This document shows positions 2,697-27,368 of a DNA stretch of 27,368 bases, in pieces. The stretch spans positions 1 through 27,368 of the IMG/VR virus record IMGVR_UViG_3300020595_002102, one strand, 5' to 3'. A program made the translations under genes and the position numbers. Under the pieces are notes generated by a model. That model searched no databases. It saw nothing but the letters and a program-made list of their open reading frames with translations, and was not told the DNA's origin. How positions within the stretch are numbered: the first letter of the stretch is position 1; every line of letters starts with the position of its first letter. The stretch comes from a virus.

Positions 2697-3140
2697 ATGT
2701 GGTATCATGAATTTAAACCGTTTGAGCCAGAAAGTGCTCCGGAAGAATATATTGGATTTGTCTATCGTATTCAAGACTTAGATACAAATAAAAAGTATAT
2801 CGGTAAAAAACTGTTTTGGAATCGACGCAAGACCAAAGTAAAAACTAAAGCCGGTGGTACTAAGACAAAATATGTAACTAAAGAATCCGATTGGAGAAGT
2901 TACTACGGTTCTAATGCTCAACTCAAAGAAGAAGTTGCAAATTACGGACCAGACCCAGAAGCTAAAAAATATTACAGAGAAATTCTTAGGTTATGTAAGA
3001 CCAAAGGCGAATGCTCATACCATGAAGCAAAGTTGCAATTTGAATATGATGTATTATTAAGAGACGATTATTATAATGGTTATATCCAGTGTAGGATTAA
3101 CTCGAAGCATATTAAAAAGGATGAAGATGATGGTGAATAA
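2697..3140 (+). CDS. SegE-like GIY-YIG domain protein
   Basis: The 147-residue protein has the core of the GIY-YIG nuclease fold: GFVYRI at 20-25 stands for GIY, KYIGKK at 33-38 for YIG, a likely metal-binding Glu at 110 (YHEAK), and an Asn at 135 (RINSK). A Lys/Arg-rich stretch (42-60) could bind DNA. Proteins of this size and motif order are common in T4-like phages and are usually labelled SegE-like endonucleases. The family includes homing enzymes, but this one sits between core genes with no sign of a split target, so it may be a resident nuclease. The start is odd: the ATG follows the nrdJ terminator by 7 bases and lacks a free Shine-Dalgarno site. Confidence 0.75.
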   Translation: MWYHEFKPFEPESAPEEYIGFVYRIQDLDTNKKYIGKKLFWNRRKTKVKTKAGGTKTKYVTKESDWRSYYGSNAQLKEEVANYGPDPEAKKYYREILRLCKTKGECSYHEAKLQFEYDVLLRDDYYNGYIQCRINSKHIKKDEDDGE

Positions 3141-6971: not shown

Positions 6972-7828
6972 TGAAAGTAGCGCTACTTTTACCAGGGTTT
7001 GTTAGAGACTTAAGTTATCTTAATGCCTTAAATGTTTTCTTAAATAACCATAAGAGTTATGATTTTGATTTATACACTAGTAGTTATGATATAGTAGGGC
7101 TGCCAACAAAATCTTCTATAAATCATACAAAATATAAAACTACTGAATCTTTTGTAGAACATAATTACATTTCTAAATTTAAAAAATGTGAATTAGATGA
7201 TTATGAGTCTTATAGTAAAGAGTGTTTACAGTTTGTAAATAAAAATAAATTATCATCTTTTATACAAAAATGCTCAAATGAGTTTTGGAAAAAATACAAC
7301 GCTAAGTTTAAAATAAAGGAAACTGAAGAAACACTTTTAGCAAATATATTTGCTCAGTGGAATAAGGTATATAAAACATATTGTTTACTAGATGATCCAG
7401 ATTCTTATGATATTATTATTAGATCTAGATACGATTATAATTTAAAAACAATGGACCTAAGCAAATATATTAATTTCTGTGATCAAGATAAAAAAACTAT
7501 AGTACATAAAATTACGTTATTAACAAATCAACCTAAGTTAGTCGGTGGTGATAATATTAAAATATTTCCTGTAGACGGATTTGCAATGGGAAATCCATAT
7601 ACTATGAAAATATATTGTTCTTTTGGAAAACCTGAAAATTTTATTAGGAATATAAAAGATCAAAATTTAAAATCAACTAATTGGTTTCAAGGAAAAGGTA
7701 AAGATATAAAATTAAGTAATGAGGGATCATTGTCTTACTGGTGTCACAATGTTAACGGACTTGATTATGCAAACATATCCGATAATCATTTGAAAAAATA
7801 TCCCAATATGAGAACGACTAAAGTATAA
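6971..7828 (+). CDS. Glycosyltransferase-like protein, AT-rich
   Basis: The 285-residue protein starts MKVALLLPGFVRDL and has DSYDIIIRSRYDYNL at 144-158. An N-terminal G-F/Q-x-R motif with a central R-S-R-x-D is seen in a poorly characterised group of glycosyltransferase-like proteins of marine bacteria and large viruses; R151/R153/D155 would line the nucleotide-sugar site. It starts in a TAATG overlap with the fusion gene, so both probably serve one sugar pathway. Composition stands out: the 60-base lines at 7201 and 7501 hold only 12 and 16 G+C, against 27 in the line at 9181. It may be a recent acquisition. The donor and acceptor are unknown. Confidence 0.6.
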   Translation: MKVALLLPGFVRDLSYLNALNVFLNNHKSYDFDLYTSSYDIVGLPTKSSINHTKYKTTESFVEHNYISKFKKCELDDYESYSKECLQFVNKNKLSSFIQKCSNEFWKKYNAKFKIKETEETLLANIFAQWNKVYKTYCLLDDPDSYDIIIRSRYDYNLKTMDLSKYINFCDQDKKTIVHKITLLTNQPKLVGGDNIKIFPVDGFAMGNPYTMKIYCSFGKPENFIRNIKDQNLKSTNWFQGKGKDIKLSNEGSLSYWCHNVNGLDYANISDNHLKKYPNMRTTKV

Positions 7829-7836
7829 ATTATTAT

Positions 7837-7913
<77 letters not shown>

Positions 7914-12395: not shown

Positions 12396-12578
12396 TTGGC
12401 TAAGTTTTCGCGTTTTGACCCGCGTAATAAAAAGAATGGACGTCATAAAAAAATGACTATTGAACAATATCCAAAAGGATCCAAACGGTCAGATGTGGAT
12501 AATGAGGATGATAAGTATCTTCGTAAGTACAAAAAAATTGATTATTATGATGACACTGATGAGGAGTTTGTAAGGTAA
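12396..12578 (+). CDS. Small basic hypothetical protein (60 aa), TTG start
   Basis: The start is TTG 12396 with AAAGGA (12383-12388) seven bases upstream; no ATG fits the reading frame as well. The N-terminal half is strongly basic (KFSRFDPRNKKNGRHKK) and the C-terminal half strongly acidic (KKIDYYDDTDEEF). There is no hydrophobic core, so it may be disordered or bind nucleic acid. It ends in a TAATG shared with the cupin gene. The function is unknown. Confidence 0.6.
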   Translation: MAKFSRFDPRNKKNGRHKKMTIEQYPKGSKRSDVDNEDDKYLRKYKKIDYYDDTDEEFVR

Positions 12579-12928
12579 TGATTGCCGGTAAAGTATGGGG
12601 TTCCACGGAACTAATTGAAGCTAACGGTGCACTTGAGTTTCACCGTATCTTCACCAAGAAAGGTGGAGTGTGTTCCAAGCACAAACATGAGTATAAATGG
12701 AACGGATTCTTCGTGGAATCTGGTTACCTGCTTATTCGCGTATGGCAGAATGATTATGATTTAGTCGATGAGACTATCGTAGGTCCAGGCGAATGGACCA
12801 AAGTAAAGCCTGGTGTCTATCACCAGTTTGAGTGTATTGAAGACTGCGTGGCCTTTGAGGTCTACTGGGCAGAATTTTCACATAATGATATCGTTAGGGA
12901 AACCGTTGGATACTCGTCGGACGTTTGA
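12578..12928 (+). CDS. Cupin-fold protein
   Basis: The 116-residue protein is a single cupin barrel. The first cupin motif appears as CSKHKHEYKWNGFFVESGYLLI with probable metal ligands H35 and H37. The second is PGEWTKVKPGVYHQFE with H82. Small cupins of this sort in phages are often linked to sugar or nucleotide-sugar genes, and here one lies 1.5 kb before the cytidylyltransferase-cupin fusion. The reaction is unknown. Its last 23 bases overlap the nuclease gene. Confidence 0.75.
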   Translation: MIAGKVWGSTELIEANGALEFHRIFTKKGGVCSKHKHEYKWNGFFVESGYLLIRVWQNDYDLVDETIVGPGEWTKVKPGVYHQFECIEDCVAFEVYWAEFSHNDIVRETVGYSSDV

Positions 12929-13610: not shown

Positions 13611-13836
13611 GTCTGATGTTAGGTATTACACTGTTGATGGGACTTTTTGTTCCATCAATATGTGTCTAGAAAAATTTGATACTGTTACAGCTGTAGAAAA
13701 GAAAGCACGTAATGGTCAAGCGTATAGCCAATATTTCCATGTGTGTAATGAATGTAACAGGAAATATGAAACCTCACGAAATAAAAGCGATACGTCTAAT
13801 GCTAGACGCGAAGCTGAACTGAAAGGTAAAGTATGA
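13549..13836 (+). CDS. Hypothetical protein with possible zinc-binding cysteines (95 aa)
   Basis: ATG 13549 has GGAGAA (13538-13543) at good spacing and overlaps the nuclease gene by 62 bases. The N-terminal 20 residues are polar; then come VRYYTVDGTFCSINMCLEKF and YFHVCNECNRKYETSR. The cysteines F-C-S, M-C-L and VCNECN could form one zinc site (CX4C ... CX2C), which would suit a nucleic-acid-binding or assembly role. That is inference. The long overlap is unusual, and a shorter start inside the unique part cannot be excluded, although no later ATG before residue 40 fits. It ends in an ATGA with the ClpP-like gene. Confidence 0.55.
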   Translation: MQPSNNTEENRLKPQKITPVKSDVRYYTVDGTFCSINMCLEKFDTVTAVEKKARNGQAYSQYFHVCNECNRKYETSRNKSDTSNARREAELKGKV

Positions 13837-14453
13837 ATATGGACCCGTTTGCTCCACTAGATGAAATGCTAGGTATGGGACAAAAGAATAAAAACATTTT
13901 CTCTGGTAAGTCTCTTGTTCAGCAGCATGATCTTTATCTAACAGGTGAGATTAAGTCTGCTGAACATTACACTGATTGGTTTGAACTTCTTCGCTCTGCG
14001 GGTAAATCAGATATTATTAAAATCCATATCAATTGTTATGGGGGTGATTTGTTTACTGCTATTCAATTGATGCGCTGTATCACAGAGTCTAATGGTAATA
14101 TTGTAACTTCTGTAGAAGGCGCATGTATGTCTGCTGCTACCATGATCTTCCTGGCATCAGAGTCTTTTGAGGTGTCTGATCACTCTGCCTTTATGTTCCA
14201 CAACTACTCTGGCATTACTATTGGTAAAGGCGGAGAGATGTACGAGCAGATTAACTTTGAAAAGAAGTGGTTCAATAAGTTAGTTAATAACATCTATAAA
14301 GACTTCTTGACAGAAGAAGAAATTAAGGACATTGAGCACGGCAAAGACCTATGGCTAGACGGCGATGAAGTCGTTATCCGTTTGAAGAAAATGGGTAAGT
14401 TTGAGGTTGAAAAACAGCTTAGCCTAGAATTAGGTGAAGAAGATGATGAATGA
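13833..14453 (+). CDS. ClpP-like serine protease
   Basis: The 206-residue protein matches the ClpP/crotonase-fold protease. INCYGGDLFTAIQLM (66-80) is the oxyanion-side glycine motif. S100 in EGACMSAATMIFLAS is the nucleophile, H123 in FMFHNYS the general base, and D172 in GKDLWLDGDEV the probable third residue, so the triad looks intact. No Clp ATPase is in the window. Phage ClpP-like proteins may act on host proteins with host ClpX/ClpA, or as capsid maturation proteases. This one lies among replication and sugar genes, away from any visible capsid gene. The C-terminus is very acidic (GEEDDE). Confidence 0.88.
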   Translation: MNMDPFAPLDEMLGMGQKNKNIFSGKSLVQQHDLYLTGEIKSAEHYTDWFELLRSAGKSDIIKIHINCYGGDLFTAIQLMRCITESNGNIVTSVEGACMSAATMIFLASESFEVSDHSAFMFHNYSGITIGKGGEMYEQINFEKKWFNKLVNNIYKDFLTEEEIKDIEHGKDLWLDGDEVVIRLKKMGKFEVEKQLSLELGEEDDE

Positions 14454-15186
14454 TAACATTGTCGTGTTCACGGGCGGGTTTGATCCAATCCACTCTGGAC
14501 ATATTGACTTGATTAATGAAGCGGCTAAGATGGGCCGAGTTGTAGTTGGCCTGAACTCAGATGAGTGGTTGACACGTAAAAAGGGACAAGCCTTCCTGCC
14601 ATGGCGAGAGCGCGAGTATATCCTACGGCAGTTTAAAAACATTATGCAAGTCATTAGTTTTGATGATAGCGATGGCACTGCAGTTGACGCCATTCGTAGA
14701 GTCAAGAATACCTTTGCGGCTAATAAAATCATTTTCGTCAATGGCGGTGATAGAACTTCAGGTAATGTCCCTGAAATGGAAGCTTTCATTAACGATCCTC
14801 AGATTGAGTTTCAATTCTCTGTCGGAGGGGACAATAAGAAAAACTCTTCAAGTTGGATTCTTGAAAAGTGGAAGTACCAAAAGACGTATCGTGACTGGGG
14901 ATATTGGCGCGTACTAGACGATAAAGGTACAATTAAGACCAAGGAACTAGTTATCGAACCAGGTAAGTCATTAAGTGATCAACGGCATCAATACAGGTCA
15001 GAGCATTGGTATGTGTTAAGTGGCACAATAAATATTTGTGATAAAGTGCTAAAGCCACACGATACGATTATCATTGATCCTATGCAGTGGCATAAAGCAG
15101 AAAATACCGGAACAGAGCCAGCACACATTATTGAAATTCAGTATGGCGACAAATGCATTGAGGATGATATTGAAAGGCGCGATTGA
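14443..15186 (+). CDS. Cytidylyltransferase-cupin fusion enzyme (glycan precursor synthesis)
   Basis: Residues 1-130 form a nucleotidyltransferase of the HxGH class: FTGGFDPIHSGHIDLI with H17/H20, then LNSDEWLTRKKG and LPWREREYIL, most like glycerol-3-phosphate cytidylyltransferase or the RfaE/HldE nucleotidyl domain. Residues 149-247 form a type II phosphomannose-isomerase cupin: YRDWGYWRVL, PGKSLSDQRHQYRSEHWYVLSG with H182 and H188, H217, and the typical end IIEIQYGDKCIEDDIER. It could both isomerise and activate a phosphosugar. GTG 14434 and ATG 14446 are alternatives; AGGTGA (14432-14437) suits ATG 14443. It opens the glycan module and overlaps the ClpP-like gene by 11 bases. Confidence 0.82.
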   Translation: MMNDNIVVFTGGFDPIHSGHIDLINEAAKMGRVVVGLNSDEWLTRKKGQAFLPWREREYILRQFKNIMQVISFDDSDGTAVDAIRRVKNTFAANKIIFVNGGDRTSGNVPEMEAFINDPQIEFQFSVGGDNKKNSSSWILEKWKYQKTYRDWGYWRVLDDKGTIKTKELVIEPGKSLSDQRHQYRSEHWYVLSGTINICDKVLKPHDTIIIDPMQWHKAENTGTEPAHIIEIQYGDKCIEDDIERRD

Positions 15187-15902
15187 TGAATATTGCTGTA
15201 GTCACTACATTTAATAACAAGCTATATAAAAAATATGCTTATCGCTTTATGGAGACATATAACTGGGATTTTGATCTTCACGTCTATAGTGAAAACGCTA
15301 TTCCAGGATCTTATATAGATTATATAGATCTTTACTCAGTACCTGGCTGTAAAGAGTTTGTAGAAAGAAACGCAGAGCGTTCTGCAAAAGACGCTCAGGT
15401 AAGTTATAAATTTGACTCAGTTAGATTTTCTTATAAAATTTACGCCTATACTGATTTTATTCTTAATAAAGCTAAAGACTATGACGGCGTAATTTGTATC
15501 GATGCCGATAGTGTTTTCTATAAACCAATTGGATCTAAATGGATTAAAGAACATATTCATAGAGATGATTGCATGATGGGGTATTTAGGTAGAGCAGGAT
15601 ACTACAGCGAGTGTGGGTTCTTGTATTTTAACATGAATCATAAAGACACTTTAGACTATGCTGCAGAAATGAAAAAAATGTACGACACCGACAATCTTTA
15701 TAAAGAAAAAGAATATCATGATAGTTGGATTTGGGACGTAGTACGCAATAGGTTTGAAAAAAACAAAGGCACTAAAAATTTCAATATTGGTGACAATGCA
15801 AAGGGTCATGTTCAAGCCAGATCGCCTTTAGGTAAAATCTATGACCATACAAAAGGTAAACGTAAAGTAAGTGGTGTAAGCCCAGAATTTAAAAGGATTT
15901 AA
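15186..15902 (+). CDS. Glycosyltransferase, GT-A type with DAD motif
   Basis: The 238-residue protein starts MNIAVVTTFNNKLYKKYAYR. Its core YDGVICIDADSVFYKPI carries the DxD metal/nucleotide-sugar motif at D106-D108. VSYKFDSVRFSYKIYAYTDF upstream and GYYSECGFLYFNM downstream follow the order of GT8-like transferases. It adds an unknown sugar to an unknown acceptor. Start ATG 15186 shares one base with the preceding TGA and has AAAGG (15173-15177) upstream. A Lys-rich C-terminus (HTKGKRKVSG) may contact the acceptor or membrane. Confidence 0.75.
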   Translation: MNIAVVTTFNNKLYKKYAYRFMETYNWDFDLHVYSENAIPGSYIDYIDLYSVPGCKEFVERNAERSAKDAQVSYKFDSVRFSYKIYAYTDFILNKAKDYDGVICIDADSVFYKPIGSKWIKEHIHRDDCMMGYLGRAGYYSECGFLYFNMNHKDTLDYAAEMKKMYDTDNLYKEKEYHDSWIWDVVRNRFEKNKGTKNFNIGDNAKGHVQARSPLGKIYDHTKGKRKVSGVSPEFKRI

Positions 15903-15904
15903 AT

Positions 15905-16447
15905 ATGACTGAAGTAGAAATGCATTTGGGTGGTCACCTAAATAAGACGTGCATCGACGAGCCAGTACTTAAATACCTAAAAGAAATGTATGGTATTAAA
16001 AGTATGATTGATATTGGCTGTGGTCCAGGAGGAATGAAAGAGATTGCATCTCAACATAATATTAAATGGACAGGCGTAGATGGTGATCCTACTGTAGAGC
16101 AGGACGCAGTACATATTCATGATTATACTAAAGGTTCGTTTACTTTTGCAGATAAAACATTTGACTTGGCTTGGTCTGTTGAATTTTTAGAACACGTTGA
16201 AGAAAAGTATATTCCTAATTATATGAAGACTTTTCAACTAGCTGATATGTGTGTAGTAACTGCAGCACCTCCAGGGACACCAGGACACCACCACGTTAAT
16301 TGTAAAGGGCTAGATTACTGGACTAAAGTATTTGCTGAGTACGGATTTAAATACGATGCAAACCTAAGTGGTTCTCTTAAGATGATTAGTACAATGCGGA
16401 AAGACTTTTTCAAAAAAACAGGTATGGTATTTACAAAGGAAGAATAA
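15905..16447 (+). CDS. SAM-dependent methyltransferase
   Basis: The 180-residue protein is a class I methyltransferase: motif I SMIDIGCGPGGM (33-44), the acidic D59 after the second strand (GVDGDPT), and FDLAWSVEFLEHVEEKYIP (86-104). It then has PPGTPGHHHVNCKGLDYW, a form common in phage and capsule-cluster methyltransferases. AAAGGA (15892-15897) precedes the ATG. In this setting the substrate is probably a sugar or sugar nucleotide; small-molecule or protein methylation is possible. Confidence 0.82.
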   Translation: MTEVEMHLGGHLNKTCIDEPVLKYLKEMYGIKSMIDIGCGPGGMKEIASQHNIKWTGVDGDPTVEQDAVHIHDYTKGSFTFADKTFDLAWSVEFLEHVEEKYIPNYMKTFQLADMCVVTAAPPGTPGHHHVNCKGLDYWTKVFAEYGFKYDANLSGSLKMISTMRKDFFKKTGMVFTKEE

Positions 16448-16448
16448 A

Positions 16449-16937
16449 GTGAAACTAGAAATTGGAGCTGGAGAAGCAGCTGGAAATAATCCAGACTGGA
16501 AATACTCAGATGTTAGAGCTGTTCCTGGAGTTGATTTTGTATGTAATGCCTGGGATATTGACGAACATGTAGAAGACAATGTTGTCGAAAAGATTTATTC
16601 TAGACATTTCTTTGAACATGTAACCTTTAGGCAAGGTGAGGTTGTTTTAGAAAAGTGGCTTAAAATTATGAAACCTGGTGGTGTATGTGAAATGATGCTT
16701 CCCAATATGGACTTTCATGTAAAACAATATGTCTCGGGAAATAAACCTGAGCATTGTCGAGCAGGATTTTGGGGCTGGCAACGAGGTGAGTTTGAAGAAG
16801 TTTGGGATGTACATAAGAGCGGATATAATGTAAAATCTTTGAGTGCATTGGTAAAGTCTAAAGGATTTGTTAATTATAAAAGCCTTAGATCTACTTCTGA
16901 TAAACACTTACATGTAACATTTGAGAAAGCAGTATGA
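16449..16937 (+). CDS. Short methyltransferase-like protein, GTG start
   Basis: The 162-residue protein begins directly with motif I (MKLEIGAGEAAGNNPDW), continues with D21 (YSDVRAVPGVDFV), the post-II motif IYSRHFFEHVTF (49-60), and LKIMKPGGVCEMMLPNMD. This is the compact predicted SAM-dependent methyltransferase type found in polysaccharide clusters. The GTG start has AAAGGAA (16435-16441) upstream and lies one base after the previous stop. The missing N-terminal helix is normal for this subfamily. It ends in ATGA with the next glycosyltransferase. Confidence 0.78.
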   Translation: MKLEIGAGEAAGNNPDWKYSDVRAVPGVDFVCNAWDIDEHVEDNVVEKIYSRHFFEHVTFRQGEVVLEKWLKIMKPGGVCEMMLPNMDFHVKQYVSGNKPEHCRAGFWGWQRGEFEEVWDVHKSGYNVKSLSALVKSKGFVNYKSLRSTSDKHLHVTFEKAV

Positions 16938-17608
16938 TTAACGTATTCATTGGTTATGACAGTAAAGAAAAGGCAGCGTTTAGTACGCTGTCTTACTCTA
17001 TTCTAAAAAATAGCACTAAACCCGTGGCAATCACGCCAATCTATCTTAAAAACATCAAAGATGATTTTGTTCGTGCAAGAAATAACTTATCTTCTACCGA
17101 GTTTTCTTTTAGTCGATTTATTGTACCTCATTTGATGAACTATCAAGGCTGGGCATTATTCATGGACTGTGATATGCTTATGAAAGGAGATATCGCAGAA
17201 CTGTGGCGTATGCGTGATGATCGATATGCTGTACAGGTATGTCAACATGACTACGAACCTAAGTCTACTACTAAGTTTTTAAACCAAACTCAGACAGTGT
17301 ATCCCAAAAAGAACTGGTCCAGTTTTATGTTGATGAATTGTTCTAAGTGTACACGACTAACACCAGACTATATCAACTCTGCTTCAGGCCTGGAGCTTCA
17401 TCAGTTTAAATGGTTAGATACTGAGGAAATGATTGGTTCTCTTCCTTTAGAGTGGAACTGGTTAGCAGGTGAATATGAACATAAAGAAGACGTTAAAAAT
17501 ATTCACTACACTGAAGGTGGTCCATGGTTTGAGGCATACAATAAAACAGACTATGCTAAAGATTGGTGGAAATATCATTTCGAAACAAGTAAGGTAGGTT
17601 TATCATAA
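16934..17608 (+). CDS. Glycosyltransferase, GT-A type with DCD motif
   Basis: The 224-residue protein starts MINVFIGYDSKEKAAFSTL and contains NYQGWALFMDCDMLMKGDIAEL with DxD at D78-D80, and a late H191 in IHYTEGGPWFE that would be the second metal ligand, as in GT8-like transferases. RARNNLSSTEFSFSRFIVPHL is the usual acceptor-side helix. Proteins of this form occur in bacterial surface-glycan loci and marine phages. ATGA and TAATG overlaps tie it to both neighbours. The sugar and the acceptor are not known. Confidence 0.82.
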   Translation: MINVFIGYDSKEKAAFSTLSYSILKNSTKPVAITPIYLKNIKDDFVRARNNLSSTEFSFSRFIVPHLMNYQGWALFMDCDMLMKGDIAELWRMRDDRYAVQVCQHDYEPKSTTKFLNQTQTVYPKKNWSSFMLMNCSKCTRLTPDYINSASGLELHQFKWLDTEEMIGSLPLEWNWLAGEYEHKEDVKNIHYTEGGPWFEAYNKTDYAKDWWKYHFETSKVGLS

Positions 17609-18492
17609 TGGATTTTACTGCGTATCTTTCTACTACATCTGGACACAAACAAAAATTCCTAAAAAACTTCGGGAAGGGTGTAGAGAAGCACGGTGATAAA
17701 GTTAATTATTACAATGGAAGCTCCTATATAGATGCCGATGCTTCTATCGTGTTTGGTTATATTTCGTACCAAAATAGATCTCCTTCCTTGGACTTAAGAA
17801 AAAAGATCGCCAAGTCTCAGAGAGAAAAAAATGTTTTCTTCTTGGATAGTAATGCTTTTAAAGAATATGAACGTACTTTGTATCATCGCTATCCGATGAT
17901 ATCTCCTTATCCAAATAAATCTGAGTTCTTTGTGGATCATATTAAAGAAGACCGATGGAAAAAGATTAAAGAAGATAGTAAGATTGATGTAAAAGATTAT
18001 CGCAAAGAGGGTAGTCATATTCTAATTCTACTGAACCGTGGTACTTTGGGATTTGCCAGTAAAGGATATAACTGCTGGGATTGGGCATATGAGACAGTCA
18101 AAAAGATTAGAAAATACACTGATAGAAAAATCGTCATTAAGCCTCATTCCAAAGATACTGATGTTAATAGATATGCCACAGAATTTTATAGTGATAAATC
18201 TGTAACAATCACTAAAAAGACTTTGAAACAGTCTTTAGAAAACGCATGGTGTAGTGTGATTCTTTCTAGTAGTGCAGGAGTCCCTAGTTTAGTTGAAGGT
18301 GTACCGGTAATTACCACGTGTGATTACAGTTTACTTTCTAAGTTCTGTACAGATACATTGAAAGATATTGAGAATCCAACCATGTTTGATAGAAAAGATA
18401 TCTTTCAAGAATTAGCCAAACAACACTGGACTCTAGATGAAATTGCAAACGGAGATTACTGGGCTATAGCCAGAGAAAACTTATGCAAATAG
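17608..18492 (+). CDS. Capsule-synthesis-like transferase, copy A
   Basis: The 294-residue protein has a GT-B-like C-terminal half: HILILLNRGTLGF, KIVIKPHSKD (174-183), a signature CSVILSSSAGVPSLVEGVPVITT (215-237), then HWTLDEIANGDYW (273-285). IKPHxK, S-S-A-G-V and E-G-x-P are how KpsS/CDP-glycerophosphotransferase-like capsule enzymes bind the phosphate donor. Two other genes in the window (18483 and 21697) share this order and the W/F-T-L-D-E-I-x-N-G tail, so they form a local paralogue set. No membrane segment is seen, so it probably acts on the cytoplasmic side. Confidence 0.7.
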   Translation: MDFTAYLSTTSGHKQKFLKNFGKGVEKHGDKVNYYNGSSYIDADASIVFGYISYQNRSPSLDLRKKIAKSQREKNVFFLDSNAFKEYERTLYHRYPMISPYPNKSEFFVDHIKEDRWKKIKEDSKIDVKDYRKEGSHILILLNRGTLGFASKGYNCWDWAYETVKKIRKYTDRKIVIKPHSKDTDVNRYATEFYSDKSVTITKKTLKQSLENAWCSVILSSSAGVPSLVEGVPVITTCDYSLLSKFCTDTLKDIENPTMFDRKDIFQELAKQHWTLDEIANGDYWAIARENLCK

Positions 18493-19403
18493 TAGGATTT
18501 AGAGGTTCATATAGAAACTTTCCATTTCCATCACATCCAGACTTTCAACTAAAAGATTTTGGTGCAAGGGAGTTGATCAATCCTGATGCATATATTCAAA
18601 CTAGCGTGGCTGGAGTGGCAAAGACTTCTAATAATAATCAGTATAGTTACATTCGCAAAAGAGGTAAACCGGTTTATGTAGTTGAACAGGCTATCTTTAG
18701 GCAGAACCTGAATATGAAACAGGACAAAGATACGTATCTTCGTTTTGGATTGAATCACTATGATTTAAAAAACGGATATTTTGCAAACCATAATTCACCC
18801 GATGATAGATGGAAACAAATTCAAAAAGACCAGGATATTGAAATTAAACCTTGGAGAACTAAAGGAGATTATATCCTAATTCTGTTGCAAAATCCTATTG
18901 ATACCAGTTTAAACTCAATGGTACAGAAAATTCAATACGGCCAGTGGTTAGTAAATCTAGTAAGAGACATTCGTAAGATTACTGACGAAGATATCGTGAT
19001 TAGACCACATCCGTTGTTTATCAATCGTATTAAGAATAATGGATTAAATGGCACCAAACAATATAAGAATGTTAGAATATCAGATGTACACAAAGGAACT
19101 AGTCCATCCAATGGGGGAGACAATTTAGCCAAAGATTTGGAAAAAGCTAGAGTCTGTATTTCTTATACTAGTAACAGTTTAACAGAAGCAATCTGTGAGG
19201 GAATCCCATCTATATCTTTGTCTGACGAGTGTTTTGCATGGCCTGTTAGTTATCATAATTTAGATATTTTAAAAGACCGAAGTTTAGTTTGCAATATAGA
19301 TAGAACACAGTGGTTACATGATTGTGCTTATGCTCAATGGAAACTATCTGAGATTAACTCTGGCATTCCTCATAGGAGACTATTAAATGGCAATAGAGCT
19401 TAA
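18483..19403 (+). CDS. Capsule-synthesis-like transferase, copy B
   Basis: The 306-residue relative of the preceding protein has DYILILLQNPIDT, IVIRPHPLFI (171-180), ARVCISYTSNSLTEAICEGIPSISL (222-246) and a degenerate tail AQWKLSEINSG (284-294). A middle element with DDRWKQIQKD matches EDRWKKIKED in copy A. It overlaps copy A by 10 bases. Arginine codons are mainly AGA (12 of 20; 3 AGG, 5 CGN). The R-P-H motif is intact, so it is probably an active transferase, perhaps with a different acceptor. Function inferred from motif order only. Confidence 0.68.
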   Translation: MQIVGFRGSYRNFPFPSHPDFQLKDFGARELINPDAYIQTSVAGVAKTSNNNQYSYIRKRGKPVYVVEQAIFRQNLNMKQDKDTYLRFGLNHYDLKNGYFANHNSPDDRWKQIQKDQDIEIKPWRTKGDYILILLQNPIDTSLNSMVQKIQYGQWLVNLVRDIRKITDEDIVIRPHPLFINRIKNNGLNGTKQYKNVRISDVHKGTSPSNGGDNLAKDLEKARVCISYTSNSLTEAICEGIPSISLSDECFAWPVSYHNLDILKDRSLVCNIDRTQWLHDCAYAQWKLSEINSGIPHRRLLNGNRA

Positions 19404-19995
19404 AAATAGTATGTTCATCCATGTTCCAAAATGTGGAGGTAGAACTGTAAAAACTCTCTTGCAGAAATACGTCAGTAATGTAAAGATTATTGGGGACGTA
19501 ACATATGATAGTCACGCAACTCCTGATACCAATAAACAAGTGTTTGGTTTTATTCGTCATCCTGCAACGTTTATTCATAGTTTATGGACACATCGAGGTA
19601 AGAAAAAAACAAATACGAGAGGACACCCCTGGAATTGGCAGACAGATATTAGATTAGAAAGAGAATGTAAGTCTACTGATTATAATGAGTTTGTTGAAAA
19701 CATTTTAAAAGATACTAATTATGTTTGGGACTATTATCATTATTATTTAGGAAAGTATGAAAACGTTCAGTACGGTAAAATTGAAGACTTAACAGAAAGT
19801 TTAATCCGTATTTTAAAAGAAAACGAAGAAGACTTTGATGAAGATGGTATTCGTAGCAATATGATTGTCATTGGCGCTAATGATAAGAAAAAACCAGTAG
19901 GTTTATTTTCCAGCATGGATCCAGAGCAAATATATAAACTAGTAACAGTATCAGAAAAACAATTATGTGAAAGGTTTAACTATCATGCGCTTTGA
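19387..19995 (+). CDS. Sulfotransferase (PAPS-dependent family)
   Basis: The 202-residue protein opens with NSMFIHVPKCGGRTVKTLL: P14-K-C-G-G-R-T20 is the 5'-phosphosulfate-binding loop of sulfotransferases (usual form PKTGGT). FGFIRHPATFIHSLW (R57, S65) is the 3'-phosphate motif. Both halves of the PAPS site are thus present. It would move sulfate to a sugar hydroxyl; PAPS must come from the host because no sulfurylase or APS kinase is here. AGGAG (19374-19378) gives a strong start inside the end of copy B. The downstream 2OG oxygenase overlaps it by 11 bases. Confidence 0.82.
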   Translation: MAIELKNSMFIHVPKCGGRTVKTLLQKYVSNVKIIGDVTYDSHATPDTNKQVFGFIRHPATFIHSLWTHRGKKKTNTRGHPWNWQTDIRLERECKSTDYNEFVENILKDTNYVWDYYHYYLGKYENVQYGKIEDLTESLIRILKENEEDFDEDGIRSNMIVIGANDKKKPVGLFSSMDPEQIYKLVTVSEKQLCERFNYHAL

Positions 19996-20998
19996 CAATC
20001 CAATCTATGATCATGGATTTAAGTTTCCGGATATTGCAGAATTTCCTGATGTTGCAGATGAGCCGCGATACAATGGCAATAATGCAGAAGAATATTTAGC
20101 TAAAATGAGATCTGCTATTGAGAATAAAAATCAAGAAGAGTTTTCTAATGGCTATAAGCATTTTATGAAAAAACCAGATTCAAAGTTATTTGATAAACTT
20201 AATAAAATGTTTAGCTTCTACTCCGGTTTTAAGAACAATAGAAAAGAAACTGGATTACCAACCAATAAAATTTATGATGAATTATTTGAAAATGGCATCT
20301 CATACCTTCATATTGATACAGATGATTTAAACAAAAAGCTTAAATCAGATATTAATCAGTTGCTTAATAAAGCAGATTGGCGTCCGCCACTTGGTACCTT
20401 TGATAGATTCAAACAGATGCCAGAACATGTTGGTTATGTAAATAATATGTTCAATAAATTAGGTATTCTTCAGGCTGCTACAAAGTATAATAAAGGTAAA
20501 CCTTTACAAGTTAAAAATGTAGTATTGCATATTGCCAAACCAACAGATCAAAATTATAAACAGTTTTTATATGATTGCGAAACTGTCAGTAAAACTATTA
20601 ACACGCACATTGATCCTAAAGAAGACGTTATTAAGTCAATGATTTACTTGAATGAGATCGGAGAAGACGACGGTCCATTTAAATATGTTGAACAGTCACA
20701 GCGTTGGATGCATGATGATTTGCAAGATTTATTTGGTCGAGCTATTACAACTGGAAGCTATTGCCATGATGAAGAATCCAGAGCATCTGTTTTTCAGTTA
20801 CCTAAAGAGTTAAGAGTATCTCATAACTTTGGTAGACTTCTATTGGATGGAACCCCTGAACAGGATTTTATTTTAGATAGACAGACGTCAATGACAAGTG
20901 ATAAAGCAAACTGTTGTGTTTTTGATACTGCAGGAATTCATCAGGGTGGCGTGTGTAACACCGGAACTAGAATAGCATTACAGGTATTAATGAAATGA
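19985..20998 (+). CDS. 2OG-Fe(II) dioxygenase, phytanoyl-CoA-dioxygenase-like
   Basis: The 337-residue protein has the iron and 2-oxoglutarate ligands in its last half. H208 and D210 are in TINTHIDPKED, H319 in DTAGIHQGGV, and R329 in GTRIALQ. The strand SMIYLNEIGEDDGPFKYVE is typical of the PhyH-like group, which often modifies small molecules or sugars. The N-terminal 110 residues are helical and not recognised. Start ATG 19985 has AAAGG at 19970-19974. Placed between a sulfotransferase and an FkbM methyltransferase, it probably tailors the glycan or its precursor. It ends in ATGA. Confidence 0.82.
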   Translation: MRFDNPIYDHGFKFPDIAEFPDVADEPRYNGNNAEEYLAKMRSAIENKNQEEFSNGYKHFMKKPDSKLFDKLNKMFSFYSGFKNNRKETGLPTNKIYDELFENGISYLHIDTDDLNKKLKSDINQLLNKADWRPPLGTFDRFKQMPEHVGYVNNMFNKLGILQAATKYNKGKPLQVKNVVLHIAKPTDQNYKQFLYDCETVSKTINTHIDPKEDVIKSMIYLNEIGEDDGPFKYVEQSQRWMHDDLQDLFGRAITTGSYCHDEESRASVFQLPKELRVSHNFGRLLLDGTPEQDFILDRQTSMTSDKANCCVFDTAGIHQGGVCNTGTRIALQVLMK

Positions 20999-21687
20999 CT
21001 TTGAATTTAAGTGATAATGTTTTAAAACGGCGTGTATTTAAGCAAGCAATTCTTGATTTGCATATCAAAGAGTTCATGTTAGGACAAACAAAAAAATATT
21101 TGTTTAAAAATAAAAACACAATTGATATAGGAGCCGCTACTGGAATGTACTCTAGCTTTTTTGCTAAGCATTCTAAGAATGTATTTTCTTTTGAAGCAGT
21201 TCCTCCTGTCTATAAACAATTGGCATTGCTATCAGATAAAATTGATAATCTTAATGTTTATAATTTAGCGGTTAGTGATTTTTCCGGCAAATCTGATTTT
21301 TATGTCGATGATAAGCGCCTATCTAATTCAGGATTTCAAAATCTAGTTGGCGGTCAAAAAATAGAAGTAGACACTATTAAACTTGATGGATTCGGTATCG
21401 ATAACATTGGTTTTATGAAAATCGATGTTGAAGGTAATGAGCTAGACGTCTTGAATGGAGCTGTAGGACTTATTGAAGAATATTTACCTACGTGCATGGT
21501 TGAGATTTATGATAAGTTCAATAAGTATCCTGTTGAAACTACTTTTGATTTTTTCTTTAGCAGAAACTATAAATGTTTTTATAATGAAAGAGCAAAGGGC
21601 TTAAAACAAGTTCGCAATATCAATGAGGCTTTAGAAGCACAAAAAATTATAGAAATCACAGATGGAGATTTCTTGTTTACTCAGTAA
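20995..21687 (+). CDS. FkbM-family methyltransferase
   Basis: The 230-residue protein shows NTIDIGAATGMYSSFFAK (41-58, SAM loop), VFSFEAVPPVYKQL with E67, and the family-defining FMKIDVEGNELDVLNGA (140-156), followed by CMVEIY. FkbM enzymes O-methylate hydroxyls of sugars and other natural products. It is the third methyltransferase of the cluster and the one most firmly tied to sugar O-methylation. It is coupled by ATGA to the oxygenase gene. The tail GDFLFTQ is complete. Confidence 0.9.
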   Translation: MTLNLSDNVLKRRVFKQAILDLHIKEFMLGQTKKYLFKNKNTIDIGAATGMYSSFFAKHSKNVFSFEAVPPVYKQLALLSDKIDNLNVYNLAVSDFSGKSDFYVDDKRLSNSGFQNLVGGQKIEVDTIKLDGFGIDNIGFMKIDVEGNELDVLNGAVGLIEEYLPTCMVEIYDKFNKYPVETTFDFFFSRNYKCFYNERAKGLKQVRNINEALEAQKIIEITDGDFLFTQ

Positions 21688-21696
21688 GGATACATT

Positions 21697-22509
21697 ATGA
21701 TTGTTACTCATAAGATGGATTGGGACGCGTGTCTCAGTCGGAAAATTTGGCCTCATGTGAAAAAAGGCTGGATTGACGAATTTAAATATATGAACTTTTT
21801 CTGGGGTTTGGGCGGTGATAACCTTACAAAACTTGCTGAAGTTATCAATGTTAAAAAAGAAGAATGGTGGTTTGTTGATGTTGGATATCTAACTAAACAA
21901 ATCGTACGATATCCTGAACCTAAGATTGTTGATAAAGATAATACTTATTTCAGGATCGTAAAGGAAGCTTTACATACTAATGTTCATAATTATAATGATC
22001 CTAGCAGACTTAGATATTTACAAGAAAATGATATTGTAGGTGAGTTTCCAGGCTGGAATGAGAAAGGAGATCATATTTTGATATGTCCTTCCTCAGAAAC
22101 TGTTACTAGATCCTTAACTAAAATGTCGGTAAAAGACTGGACAAAAAAGGTGATTGATGATCTTAAAGAGGTTACTGATCGCCCTGTTAAAGTTCGAATG
22201 AAACCCAGACCTAAGAATAAGTTTTGGGGAACTGATATTAATGACGATTTGGAAAACTGTCATGCATGTATAACCTCTCTTAGCCTATCGGCTATTGATT
22301 CCGTGATGAAAGGAGTTCCTATCATTACATATAATGCTCATGCTGGATCATCTTTGTCCGCCAAAAGTCTACAGCACATTGAAAAGTTAAATAAGCCATC
22401 AGATAAAATAGTAAATGATTGGTTGGCTTCGCTTGCTAATAATCAGTTTACACTAGATGAAATCGGCAACGGTACAGCTTATGAGGTATTGAAAAAGAAC
22501 TATGGATAA
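21697..22509 (+). CDS. Capsule-synthesis-like transferase, copy C (altered motif)
   Basis: The 270-residue paralogue has HILICPSSETVTR, VKVRMKPRPKNKF (165-177), CHACITSLSLSAIDSVMKGVPIITY (188-212) and NQFTLDEIGNGTAYEVLKKN (249-268). Two features differ from copies A and B: the His of the P-H motif is Arg (K169-P-R-P172), and the acidic residue of E-G-x-P is Lys (MKGVP). The active site may therefore be changed or lost, or the donor may differ. The TLDEIxNG tail is kept. AAGGA (21686-21690) gives a clear start. It is separated from copies A and B by three genes. Confidence 0.62.
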   Translation: MIVTHKMDWDACLSRKIWPHVKKGWIDEFKYMNFFWGLGGDNLTKLAEVINVKKEEWWFVDVGYLTKQIVRYPEPKIVDKDNTYFRIVKEALHTNVHNYNDPSRLRYLQENDIVGEFPGWNEKGDHILICPSSETVTRSLTKMSVKDWTKKVIDDLKEVTDRPVKVRMKPRPKNKFWGTDINDDLENCHACITSLSLSAIDSVMKGVPIITYNAHAGSSLSAKSLQHIEKLNKPSDKIVNDWLASLANNQFTLDEIGNGTAYEVLKKNYG

Positions 22510-23155
22510 TGTATTTTTAACAGGGTGCGACCGTAACACAGAATGGATGTTAGAATGGTGGTTTGAAAACTATTCTAGATATAATGATTTGCCTGTTATT
22601 TTTGCAGACTTTGGTGTCAGCAGTAGTTGTCGACAATATGTAAAAGAACATTTTGCACATATTATTACTTTCAAACCATACGAATATAAGGCGTGGTTTC
22701 TCAAACCTAAAGCCATGATTGAAGCTTCACACCGAGCTAAGAAAGTGTGTTGGATTGATACCGATTGTCATGTATTAGATAACATCTCTGAAATTTTTGA
22801 GTATTCTAAACCAGAAAAATTAGGGATGGTACAGGATAAACCATGGTCTAAACGTAGGGGTGAAGTTTGGCATAATTCAGGAGTTGTTCTTATTGAAGGT
22901 ACTCCAAAAATTCTGCACAATTGGGCCGATCGGATTGAAAAAAGACCAAAAGTTGGAGATCAGGAAGTTTTACATGAGATGGTCAGAGGTGACGACTTAA
23001 CTAGAATGATACATATTGAAGATCTGCCGAATATGTATAATTGGTTAAGAATCCAAATAGAACACGACAATCATGATTCTAAGAAAAAGAAGATTATGCA
23101 TTGGACTGGCAACAAAGGTAAGAAGATTATTAAGGAGATTATGAAGAGTGGCTGA
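22502..23155 (+). CDS. Glycosyltransferase-like protein with DTD motif
   Basis: The 217-residue protein begins MDNVFLTGCDRNTEWMLEWW and holds KKVCWIDTDCHVL with DxD at D86-D88, GEVWHNSGVVLIEG (120-133), and a final IMHWTGNKGKK with H200. This is a compact GT-A fold of the GT8-like type, probably full length. It differs from the two other DxD enzymes in its N-terminus (CDRNTEWML), pointing to another acceptor. It overlaps copy C by 8 bases and the next gene by 8. Confidence 0.75.
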   Translation: MDNVFLTGCDRNTEWMLEWWFENYSRYNDLPVIFADFGVSSSCRQYVKEHFAHIITFKPYEYKAWFLKPKAMIEASHRAKKVCWIDTDCHVLDNISEIFEYSKPEKLGMVQDKPWSKRRGEVWHNSGVVLIEGTPKILHNWADRIEKRPKVGDQEVLHEMVRGDDLTRMIHIEDLPNMYNWLRIQIEHDNHDSKKKKIMHWTGNKGKKIIKEIMKSG

Positions 23156-23780
23156 TAATATTGTACATGTTATTGGTAATGGTGATAACGCTGTTTGGTT
23201 TGATAATGCTTCAAAGGGTAAAAAGCTTGTATGCAACAAACCTATGGTAGAGGTTCGTAATCCATATGCCACGTGTATCGTAGATTTTAAGATGATGAAA
23301 GCCTTGACTGAAGGTAGTATCAATCTTGATGGTTTTACTTGGATTTTAGGTTATCGTCCTAAGATTTGGATGGAAAAACATCCTGCGTTTCATATGCGCC
23401 ATGCTTCACACATTAAAGACTTTTATACGGTTCTTCCTAAATATGCAGGCAAGGGAGGTCAGGGATATACAAATCTAAACTGCGGTCACTTTGCCACACA
23501 CTACGCTGCAAATAAACTCAAAGCCGATACTATCCATTTATATGGATTTGATTGCTTATTTGATTTTAGTACAAGATCCATGACGGACTTTGCCTTACAG
23601 TCTGATAGAGGTAACAATAACACTCAACGTTTGACCGATACCTGGCGTCACGTGTTTAACGGTATTTTTAATGAGTTTAAGGACACTCAGTTTGTTTTGC
23701 ACCATAAACACTCCAACTTAAAAATTCCTAAGACGGATAATATGGAGATTGTAGTCCATTCTAAAAAGAAAAAATCTTAA
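23148..23780 (+). CDS. Conserved protein closing the glycan module, function unknown
   Basis: The GTG start (23148) lies in the overlap with the preceding gene. The 210-residue product opens IVHVIGNGDNAVWFDNASKG, a Rossmann-like nucleotide-binding start, and then has NCGHFATHYAANKLKADTIHLYGFDCLFDF and DSDRG-like LQSDRGNNNTQRLTDTW. The middle and C-terminal stretches are strongly patterned and I believe they recur in marine phages next to sugar genes. The glycine-rich N-terminus plus HLYGFDC resembles DUF115/MAF-like sugar proteins, but the likeness is weak. The tail is Lys-rich (SKKKKS). No membrane segment. Confidence 0.6.
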   Translation: MADNIVHVIGNGDNAVWFDNASKGKKLVCNKPMVEVRNPYATCIVDFKMMKALTEGSINLDGFTWILGYRPKIWMEKHPAFHMRHASHIKDFYTVLPKYAGKGGQGYTNLNCGHFATHYAANKLKADTIHLYGFDCLFDFSTRSMTDFALQSDRGNNNTQRLTDTWRHVFNGIFNEFKDTQFVLHHKHSNLKIPKTDNMEIVVHSKKKKS

Positions 23781-23874: not shown

Positions 23875-24819
23875 ATGGCTCACGAAATTGAAATGGTAAA
23901 CGGTGTTGCTCAGATGGCTTATGCAGGTAACCTTCCTTGGCATGGTCTTGGTGCTGAAGTATCTGACGATATTTCTACTAATGATATGATGAAGGCCGCA
24001 GGCCTTGATTGGTCTGTAACCAAGCAGCCTATGTACTACATGGATGATCTGGGCGAGATGGGTGAAGTACCTGGTAAGACTGCTCTGGTCCGTTCCACTG
24101 ACAACAAGGTCATGGACATTGTAGGTGAAGGCTGGAACCCAGTACAGAACCAAGAAGCATTTGACTTTTTTCGTCAGTTTGTAGATGCTGGTGATATGCA
24201 GATGCACACTGCCGGTTCTCTCAAAGGTGGTAAGATGGTCTGGGCTCTGGCTAAGATCAACGATGGTTTTACTATCAAAACTCCACAAGGCGAAGACACT
24301 GTAGAATCCTACCTTCTCTTCTCCAACCCACATCAGTACGGTAAGTCAATCGACGTACGGTTCACTCCAATCCGTGTGGTGTGCAACAACACTCTTACTC
24401 TCTCCATTAACCAGCAGGTAGACAACTACGTTCGCGTGGGTCACCAGACTCCATTCGATGCAGCTACTGCAATGGAAACCCTTGGCATGGCTCAGCAAAA
24501 GATGGAGACTTACCGCAGTGCAGCTGAGTATCTTTGTCAGAAGAAGTATACTTCTGAGCAGATGGTTAATTACTTCAACCAAGTATTTCCTTCTGCTGGT
24601 GAGAAAGCTTCCTATAAAGCACGTGAAGCACAAGAGGTTATGCACACCCAAGCAGGTGCCAACCTTGGTGAAGGTACTTTCTGGCAGCTCTTTAACACTG
24701 TAACCTACATGGCCGACCATACTCTTGGCCGAAATAATGATAACCGCCTTCAGTCTTCTTGGTACGGCACTAATGCCAATGTCAAGAAGAAGGCACTTGA
24801 ACTTGCAGTCGCAGCATAG
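23875..24819 (+). CDS. DUF932 family phage/plasmid-like protein
   Basis: The 314-residue protein has the family hallmarks: PWHGLGAEVSDDISTNDMMKAAGLDWSV near the N-terminus, VGEGWNPVQNQEAFDFFRQF, LVWALAKI-like KMVWALAKIN, and the signature YLLFSNPHQYGKSIDVRFTP followed by RVVCNNTLTLS. DUF932 proteins (TIGR03299 group) are common in phages and plasmids, and their function is unknown; they are thought to act in DNA or establishment processes. Codon use is rich in CGT/CGC and preferred codons, unlike the AT-rich glycan genes, which suggests strong expression. It is the first gene after its own promoter. Confidence 0.88.
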   Translation: MAHEIEMVNGVAQMAYAGNLPWHGLGAEVSDDISTNDMMKAAGLDWSVTKQPMYYMDDLGEMGEVPGKTALVRSTDNKVMDIVGEGWNPVQNQEAFDFFRQFVDAGDMQMHTAGSLKGGKMVWALAKINDGFTIKTPQGEDTVESYLLFSNPHQYGKSIDVRFTPIRVVCNNTLTLSINQQVDNYVRVGHQTPFDAATAMETLGMAQQKMETYRSAAEYLCQKKYTSEQMVNYFNQVFPSAGEKASYKAREAQEVMHTQAGANLGEGTFWQLFNTVTYMADHTLGRNNDNRLQSSWYGTNANVKKKALELAVAA

Positions 24820-26576: not shown

Positions 26577-26788
26577 TGATTAAGTCAGTGCATCACAAGT
26601 ATGGTACAATAATTGATCCCCCTTCTGGATGGAAGTATGGTTTCCCTAAGCATTTACCAGATAGTAAAGATTATAAAGAGATGCTTAAGGAAAGCGGTTA
26701 TCCAGAAAAAGATATTGATTTTGCAATGAAGCATTCACGAATGTGGTTTACACATGTCGGGTTTAGTTTGGTGAAGGACGATGAATAA
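26576..26788 (+). CDS. Hypothetical protein (70 aa)
   Basis: It begins and ends in TAATG overlaps. The product starts MIKSVHHKYGTIIDPPSGWK, is rich in His, Lys, Pro and Tyr, and has no membrane segment or obvious domain. SGYPEKDIDFAMKHSR suggests a helix-turn. The family is unknown. It lies directly before the hexapeptide-repeat gene and is probably co-translated with it. Confidence 0.5.
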   Translation: MIKSVHHKYGTIIDPPSGWKYGFPKHLPDSKDYKEMLKESGYPEKDIDFAMKHSRMWFTHVGFSLVKDDE

Positions 26789-27368
26789 TGACTAATATTT
26801 ATTTTGATTTTGAAGATGGCAACGGTCCTGTACCAGCACACCAGCATCCTAATGGCGGTGGCTGGGTAGCTGATACTGCTAAAGTATATGAGACTTCTTA
26901 TGTTGGTCCTGATGCTCAGGTCTATGGTGATGCTACAGTCTCTGGTAATGCTCGGGTCTATGGTTATGCTGAGGTCTTTGGTAAAGCTCGGGTCTATGGT
27001 GCTGTTGAGGTCTATGGTAATGCCACGGTCTCTGGTAAGGCCACGGTCTCTGGTAATGCTCGGGGCTATGGTAATGCCACGGTCTCTGGTAAGGCCACGG
27101 TCTCTAGTAATGCTCGGGTCTCTGGTAATGCTCGGGTCTCTGGTAATGCTCTGGTCTCTAGTAATGCTCGGGTCTATGATGATGCTTGGGTCTCTGATGA
27201 TGCTCGGGTCTCTAGTAATGCTACAGTCTCTGGTAATGCTCGGGTCTATGGTAATGCTTGGGTCTCTGGTAATGCTAAGGTCTGTGATGATGATCGGGTC
27301 TGTGATGATGATCAGGTCTATAGTTATACTAAGGTCCAGAAAGAGACCAAGAAAGATCGAATTTTTAT
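26788..27368 (+). CDS. Hexapeptide-repeat (left-handed beta-helix-like) protein, 3' end outside window
   Basis: The frame opens at ATG 26788 in a TAATG overlap and is still open at the right edge after 193 codons. After a 40-residue head (VPAHQHPNGGGWVADTAKVY) come 23 six-residue units of the form G/S/D-N/D/K-A-x-V-S/Y (residues 41-178), for example GNARVY and GKATVS. Six-residue periodicity with Val every sixth position is expected for a left-handed beta-helix, as in hexapeptide transferases and some phage adhesins. The last units degrade (DDDRVC, DDDQVY). The head has PAHQHPNGGG. A tail-associated or receptor role is guesswork; no transferase His is seen. Confidence 0.75.
   Translation, partial: MTNIYFDFEDGNGPVPAHQHPNGGGWVADTAKVYETSYVGPDAQVYGDATVSGNARVYGYAEVFGKARVYGAVEVYGNATVSGKATVSGNARGYGNATVSGKATVSSNARVSGNARVSGNALVSSNARVYDDAWVSDDARVSSNATVSGNARVYGNAWVSGNAKVCDDDRVCDDDQVYSYTKVQKETKKDRIF
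26908..27321 (+). repeat. 23 tandem 18-bp coding repeats
   Basis: Units of 18 bp such as GGTAATGCTCGGGTCTCT run head to tail in phase with the gene, with point changes that mostly alter the first, fourth and sixth codons of each unit. Near-identical blocks (for instance the GGTAATGCCACGGTCTCT units) recur, which is a sign of unequal exchange or slippage. Confidence 0.85.

Follow-up and report, generated by a model that had tools for sequence, protein, structure and literature searches.

Hypervariable islands of glycosyltransferase genes are already known from T4-like marine phages. Examples are the host recognition cluster of pelagimyophages and their scattered clusters of lipopolysaccharide (LPS) type, which are rich in GT8 genes and for whose glycosyltransferases a published study proposes a modification of the LPS O-chain (PMC7029224). 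Here we describe a related cassette of thirteen genes, g1 to g13, in the IMG/VR record IMGVR_UViG_3300020595_002102. This record, analysed in full and referred to as the window, spans 27,368 bases and represents part of a virus genome. The cassette shares the hypervariability and the GT8 genes of the pelagimyophage clusters, but it is inserted between ClpP and DUF932 and belongs to another lineage. The main text of that study mentions neither sulfotransferases nor methyltransferases, and we came across no description there of the architecture reported here, with fixed ends including g12 and g13 and a variable middle. We read the locus as a mosaic cassette exchanged between phages, whose enzymes would build a decorated oligosaccharide on the LPS core of the host; to this reading as a whole we assign a probability of about 0.45.

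A first-pass annotation of the sequence had placed thirteen consecutive genes at 14443 to 23780. The genes indeed abut each other, as consecutive open reading frames (ORFs) on the + strand with intergenic gaps of -29 to +9 bases. The block starts at 14434 with the GTG of g1, and 14443 is an inner ATG of this gene. The cassette, its boundaries and one outlying gene are as follows.

12578..12928, + strand: cupin, weakly WbuC-like, apart from the main block (TIGR04366, E = 1e-4, below cutoff)
13833..14453, + strand: left boundary, ClpP-like protease, phage backbone
14434..15186, + strand: g1, HldE/TagD-like nucleotidyltransferase fused to a type-II phosphomannose isomerase cupin; lineage-resident
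15183..15902, + strand: g2, GT-A-like glycosyltransferase, its DxD motif (DADSVF) being conserved
15905..16447, + strand: g3, S-adenosylmethionine (SAM)-dependent methyltransferase
16449..16937, + strand: g4, small SAM methyltransferase-like protein (weak)
16934..17608, + strand: g5, GT8 family glycosyltransferase
17608..18492, + strand: g6, putative glycosyltransferase of KpsC/WbbB fold (Kdo-transferase type; by alignment, fold taken from the g11 model)
18483..19403, + strand: g7, putative KpsC/WbbB-fold glycosyltransferase, assigned as g6 (by alignment, fold taken from the g11 model)
19387..19995, + strand: g8, putative carbohydrate sulfotransferase (P-loop for 3'-phosphoadenosine 5'-phosphosulfate and 3'-phosphate motif)
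19967..20998, + strand: g9, PhyH-like 2-oxoglutarate (2OG)-Fe(II) oxygenase, HxD...H...R
20995..21687, + strand: g10, FkbM-family methyltransferase
21697..22509, + strand: g11, predicted KpsC/WbbB-fold Kdo-type transferase (predicted structure)
22502..23155, + strand: g12, Nucleotid_trans GT-A glycosyltransferase (DTD); lineage-resident 3' end of the cassette
23148..23780, + strand: g13, predicted transferase of sialyltransferase/Maf fold; fixed last cassette gene (predicted structure)
23875..24819, + strand: right boundary, DUF932/phrog_1221 protein, phage backbone

It is highly probable that this cassette is a mosaic and that two T4-like lineages, which carry it at separate genomic sites, have exchanged segments of it. 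The closest relatives of g1, g12 and g13 belong to the window's own lineage (81-91%, 64% and 72% identity, respectively). Full-length relatives of g3, g4, g7, g8, g9 and g11, however, were found only in a set of pelagimyophage-type contigs, with 69% identity for g8 and 67% for g9, and g10 is 82% identical to its relative in this set versus 25% in the own lineage. A partial exception is g5 (87% in the own lineage, 82% in the pelagimyophage-type set). The genes g8-g9-g10-g11 are contiguous in several contigs, and one contig (L186) lacks g9 and g10. Three contigs of the set (L183, L185 and L193) were typed by their ribonucleotide reductase (Nrd) and RuvC genes, which are ~56-90% identical to those of the Pelagibacter phage Mosig EXVC030M; in these Mosig-like contigs the cassette is located between RuvC and a homologue of Mosig_00183. 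The cassette of Mosig itself comprises Mosig_00183-00191 (MT647606) in one + strand block, with counterparts of g2 (61%), g5 (74%) and g11 (48%), FkbM methyltransferases, a DUF6716-like transferase and a sulfotransferase (Sulfotransfer_2, E = 4e-12) that matches g8 at the P-loop only. In contrast to the window cassette it lies between RuvC/NrdB and DUF3310 and has no close homologues of g1, g3, g4, g9, g12 and g13. Base composition agrees with a mosaic: the mean GC content of g2-g11 is lower than that of the flanking genes (0.345 versus 0.391, Mann-Whitney p = 0.004), and the Mosig genome has 30% GC (PMC7892664).

The first-pass annotation had suggested looking for conserved synteny in other phage genomes. 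Within the window lineage this was found for the ends and not for the interior: in ~25 IMG/VR contigs the ClpP side and/or the (g12-)g13-DUF932 side recur, whereas the genes between them differ. The interiors of these sister contigs encode GT25 and GT8 enzymes, GDP-mannose dehydratase, an RfbH/PseC-like aminotransferase, UDP-galactopyranose mutase, UDP-glucose dehydrogenase, FkbM methyltransferases and radical-SAM proteins. A search with g13 yielded 79 marine phage loci, with g13 recovered in 77 and g12 in 59 of them and GT25 copies preceding these genes in 67. In these loci g13 is the last cassette gene and is followed by an exonuclease (22 loci) or by unrelated short genes. A homologue of the outlying cupin occurs in 31 of 81 loci, and in many related cassettes it is placed between g2 and g5. 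Sulfotransferases recur as well, in at least three divergent kinds: a Sulfotransfer_2 protein in ten of the 79 loci, another enzyme in Mosig, and g8. Since the Sulfotransfer_2 proteins of these loci and of Mosig resemble g8 at the P-loop only, these phages seem to have acquired sulfation on several occasions, apparently independently.

Two further gene types were observed in sister phages. B12-binding radical-SAM proteins (PhpK/HpnJ-like) directly follow g13 at L088:6957-8594, L098:5266-6912 and L003:12878-16176, the last comprising two such proteins in tandem. A RuBisCO-like protein of 351 residues with a GGDFIKEDE motif lies within the variable region at L102:1638-2690 (also L086:1350-2402 and L166:5977-7029); its match to rubisco_III (NCBIfam, E = 6e-31) is below the equivalog cutoff.

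The window is phage DNA. Upstream of the cassette it encodes ribonucleotide reductase (phrog_367), PhoH, a phrog_298 exonuclease and the ClpP-like protease, and downstream the DUF932 protein (phrog_1221), a WYL_2 protein and a lysozyme-like protein. A 96-kb relative (G001), with 86% identity in ribonucleotide reductase and 88% in DUF932, carries T4-like gp13, gp14 and gp3, and another relative with the same backbone (G005) has TerL, portal and sheath genes. By these gene contents the lineage is assigned to T4-like myoviruses (Pantevenvirales/Kyanoviridae-related), with the neck, portal, terminase and sheath genes seen in the relatives and none of them in the window fragment. The host recognition cluster of pelagimyophages is located between VrlC and gp14; in G001 the cassette is ~45 kb away from gp13/gp14. 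A search with PF07068 (gp23) gave no match anywhere, controls included, and thus carries no information. The nearest named genomes belong to Kyanoviridae and comprise Mosig, which has the cassette interior, and phage C48C1 (OQ984149). The latter has homologues of DUF932 (48%), the phrog_298 exonuclease (51%) and g13 (43%), together with glycosyl- and carbamoyltransferases; its g13 homologue, however, is located far from DUF932 and the rest of its cassette differs.

As a possible refutation, the first-pass annotation had named a mobile O-antigen locus of the host that was misjoined to phage sequence. Such a surface-polysaccharide locus, whether the product of a misassembly or of a recent capture of the entire locus from the host, is the least probable of all explanations considered here. 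Single relatives of g5 at about 52-63% do exist in bacteria, but a scan of bacterial genomes seeded with g5 only, which covered 80 loci with a g5 relative, found several module genes together only on L204-L206. Their flanks match Mosig, which indicates pelagimyophage contigs binned into bacterial metagenome-assembled genomes (MAGs). Next to single g5 relatives in Rhizobium, Aurantimonas and Methylophilus no bacterial cassette was present. Furthermore, the junctions of the window cassette are reproduced in independent phage contigs. On the basis of this g5-seeded scan, in which several module genes occurred together on phage contigs only, a bacterial O-antigen or capsule locus was rejected. L204 and L205 derive from the Porticoccaceae MAG MED754 and L206 from the Rickettsiales MAG MED606.

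The enzyme types named in the first-pass annotation, i.e. a nucleotidyltransferase-cupin, three DxD glycosyltransferases, three methyltransferases, a sulfotransferase and a 2OG oxygenase, hold by families or motifs, with g4 being weak. g1 matches CTP_transf_like (E = 2e-10) and the MannoseP_isomer cupin (E = 4e-22) and clearly belongs by sequence to the HldE/TagD nucleotidyltransferase superfamily. Its exact substrate is not fixed, because the NCBIfam scores are below the equivalog cutoffs (rfaE_dom_II, 5e-14, 52 bits versus a cutoff of 181; GMP_PMI, 8e-20); it may add a heptose-type sugar. DxD motifs are present in g2, g5 and g12, that of g2 being conserved in 20 aligned sequences. g5 matches Glyco_transf_8 (E = 6e-7, with 496 relatives in IMG/VR) and g12 Nucleotid_trans (E = 3.5e-6). 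Among the methyltransferases, g10 is an FkbM member (E = 7e-15), and g3 and g4 match Methyltransf_23 (E = 1e-7 and, weakly, 0.002). For g8 no match was obtained in Pfam or NCBIfam, and the only family hit is a weak one to phrog_3347 (E = 0.0035). Both signature motifs of carbohydrate sulfotransferases can nevertheless be recognized, the 5'-phosphosulfate-binding loop HVPKCGGRT and the 3'-phosphate-binding motif RHPATFIHS (RHPATFxHS in relatives). They are near-invariant across seven sequences, and g8 is on these grounds probably such an enzyme. The PhyH match of g9 is likewise weak (E = 0.007 in the window and 0.0013 in the homologue from L185, both below cutoff), but the iron triad and the 2OG-binding arginine, H214-x-D216...H325...R335, are invariant in the alignment. 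Searches of PDB sequences with alignments of g2, g6/g7/g11, g8, g9 and g13 gave nothing meaningful.

The three capsule-type transferases of the first-pass annotation are g6, g7 and g11. They are paralogues according to their alignment and have no Pfam match of their own, and their relatives match DUF6716 and Capsule_synth weakly. A structure of g11 was predicted from 40 sequences with a predicted local distance difference test (pLDDT) score of 89. In Foldseek its closest matches are the 3-deoxy-D-manno-oct-2-ulosonic acid (Kdo) transferases KpsC, WbbB and KrkA (E = 2e-5, 25 matches below 0.001). Structural alignment with KpsC (6mgc) covers 225 residues with Z = 12.4 and a root-mean-square deviation (rmsd) of 4.0 Å, and each of the 12 best structural neighbours is a Kdo transferase (Z = 10.1-12.4). 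The model thus points to KpsC/WbbB-fold Kdo-type transferases for g6, g7 and g11, the fold having been tested on g11 only. Sequence identity to KpsC/WbbB is ~6-12%, below sequence-family thresholds, and in contrast to the KpsC/WbbB enzymes the window cassette has neither a KpsS partner nor an exporter of the ATP-binding cassette (ABC) type.

The "one unknown protein" of the first-pass annotation is g13. It has indeed no match in Pfam or NCBIfam, but a fold resembling the CstII sialyltransferase and Maf can be predicted. The model (pLDDT 78, built from eight sequences) gave no significant E-value in Foldseek; it aligned with the Maf flagellin glycosyltransferase (5mu5) over 170 residues with Z = 11.4 and an rmsd of 3.9 Å, and with CstII (GT42) with Z = 11.1, at ~12% identity. 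Since the Maf/CstII grouping appeared only in the second structural alignment, this assignment is less secure than that of g11.

The predicted KpsC/WbbB fold suggests donors of the cytidine monophosphate (CMP)-Kdo type. Independent support for such a donor comes from two sister cassettes, in which a KdsB-like CMP-Kdo synthetase gene (PDB match, E = 2e-32) follows g13 and a radical-SAM gene; the two genes (L088:8594-9355 and L098:6912-7673) are 90% identical to each other. One MAG, a candidate host, includes a Mosig-like contig and also has kdsB above cutoff, which suggests that CMP-Kdo may be supplied by the host.

Taken together, the enzyme set fits glycan assembly from an activated sugar with methyl, sulfate and possibly hydroxyl decoration, as the first-pass annotation had assumed. 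g1 would help to produce the activated sugar, either heptose-like or another nucleoside diphosphate sugar. The GT-A enzymes g2, g5 and g12 and the KpsC-fold enzymes g6, g7 and g11 would add sugars stepwise, the latter taking CMP-Kdo-like donors from the host or, in sister phages, from the phage KdsB. g3, g4 and g10 would methylate the product, g8 would sulfate it and g9 may hydroxylate it, whereas g13 would add a CMP-linked capping sugar or make the first link. The polymerization proposed by the first-pass annotation is unsupported, as there is no polymerase among the 13 genes. The transferases all differ from one another, and this points to a short oligosaccharide of defined structure that would be built by soluble transferases and then decorated. 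A diversion of nucleotide-sugar or sulfate metabolism with no defined glycan product could be envisaged from the auxiliary metabolic genes nearby (2OG oxygenase, PhoH, ferredoxin oxidoreductase). We consider it very improbable; at least six transferases and the decorating enzymes remain linked and are reshuffled jointly, which implies a specific product.

No membrane flippase or polymerase and no ABC exporter, as in O-antigen or capsule loci, is encoded among the 13 genes, and a hydropathy scan of all 13 proteins found no stretch at the membrane threshold (the highest value is 1.51, in g6). This part of the first-pass annotation is correct. Its deduction of phage DNA or the virion as the acceptor, however, does not follow, because LPS-core and lipid-linked acceptors also use soluble transferases and can be exported by the host. 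For phage DNA no evidence was found. A glycan on a hypermodified base would protect against nucleases, DNA glycosylation exists as a class in phages, and soluble enzymes would suffice for it. Yet none of the window genes searched was recognized as base-hydroxymethylating, g9 resembles PhyH and not TET/JBP, and sulfated, multi-methylated oligosaccharides involving Kdo-type transferases are unlike known DNA sugars. Hence, we regard this acceptor as improbable.

As acceptor we tentatively favour a cytoplasmic LPS core precursor of the host, which would be exported by the host's own transporter; the altered surface of infected cells would then be adsorbed less well by competing phages. Assembly of the LPS core relies on soluble enzymes in the cytoplasm, and its export is carried out by the host. 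The enzyme families are of LPS type, with HldE-like, GT8 and Kdo-transferase folds in the window and GT25, GT8, KdsB, GDP-mannose dehydratase, the RfbH/PseC-like aminotransferase and UDP-galactopyranose mutase in sister cassettes. In addition, the cassette lies amid nucleotide-metabolism genes and not beside structural genes (~45 kb from gp13/gp14 in G001), and its diversification fits phage-phage competition. A similar proposal has been made for pelagimyophages (PMC7029224). Several points weigh against this reading. The acceptor is inferred only, and the fold likeness of the g11 and g13 models does not fix the donor. The g13 model is as near to Maf, a protein O-glycosyltransferase, as to CstII, which would favour a protein acceptor. 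Finally, a lytic phage profits less from LPS remodelling, since the old LPS remains on the surface.

A glycan attached in the cytoplasm to a virion protein (tail fibre, capsid or decoration protein) is accordingly a possible, though somewhat less probable, product. The Maf-like g13 would form the first O-link to Ser/Thr, the other cassette enzymes would extend and decorate it, and the glycan would alter adsorption, stability or recognition. The lack of membrane proteins, the Maf-like fold of the fixed last gene and the variation of the cassette between close relatives agree with this, and virion glycosylation is known from mycobacteriophages, as cited in PMC12619734. CstII, however, an enzyme sialylating lipooligosaccharide (LOS), fits g13 equally well, and both the LPS-type families and the distance from structural genes argue for the host LPS core instead. 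Of the acceptors named by the first-pass annotation the virion thus stays a candidate, with g13 resembling both a LOS sialyltransferase and a protein O-glycosyltransferase. In a more specific form, which we consider rather unlikely, marine T4-like phages would trade "serotype" cassettes whose enzymes decorate the phages' own virion proteins with a Kdo-type oligosaccharide that is methylated and sulfated, g13 acting as a Maf-like protein O-glycosyltransferase for the first link; this would be a sulfated virion glycan produced entirely by phage enzymes. Since the cultured Mosig EXVC030M, growing on Pelagibacter ubique HTCC1062, carries a related cassette, the choice between LPS and virion is directly testable.

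The locus represents an unusually complete enzyme set for the glycosyltransferase islands common in marine T4-like phages. With interiors exchanged between lineages and ends kept fixed, these phages seem to trade sugar "designs". As far as our literature search shows, the fixed-end/variable-middle structure with g12-g13, the exchange across lineages, the recurrent sulfotransferases, the predicted Kdo-transferase and Maf/CstII folds of proteins lacking Pfam matches, and a phage KdsB are new. This search was of limited coverage; that it returned nothing on phage sulfotransferases and capsid glycosylation, or on KdsB as an auxiliary gene of phages, does not mean that no such work exists.

A few minor features of the window remain to be mentioned. 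A scan for T4 late promoters found no match to TATAAATA versus ~3 expected, and eight occurrences of CTAAATA versus eight expected, which tells little beyond the lack of a clear late promoter, a point that would fit the LPS reading; such promoter scans are weak evidence. The protein encoded at 2697-3140 has PHROG matches labelled both "NAD synthetase" and "homing endonuclease", one of which is probably misleading. A YdcK-type beta-solenoid/hexapeptide protein at 26788-27366 is incomplete at the record end. The ORF at 6971-7913 (285 residues) has a very low GC content of 0.256 and no PHROG match, and is possibly an inserted element. It is directly followed by a tRNA-Arg(TCT) sharing 86-94% identity with tRNAs from phages of Klebsiella and Acinetobacter.

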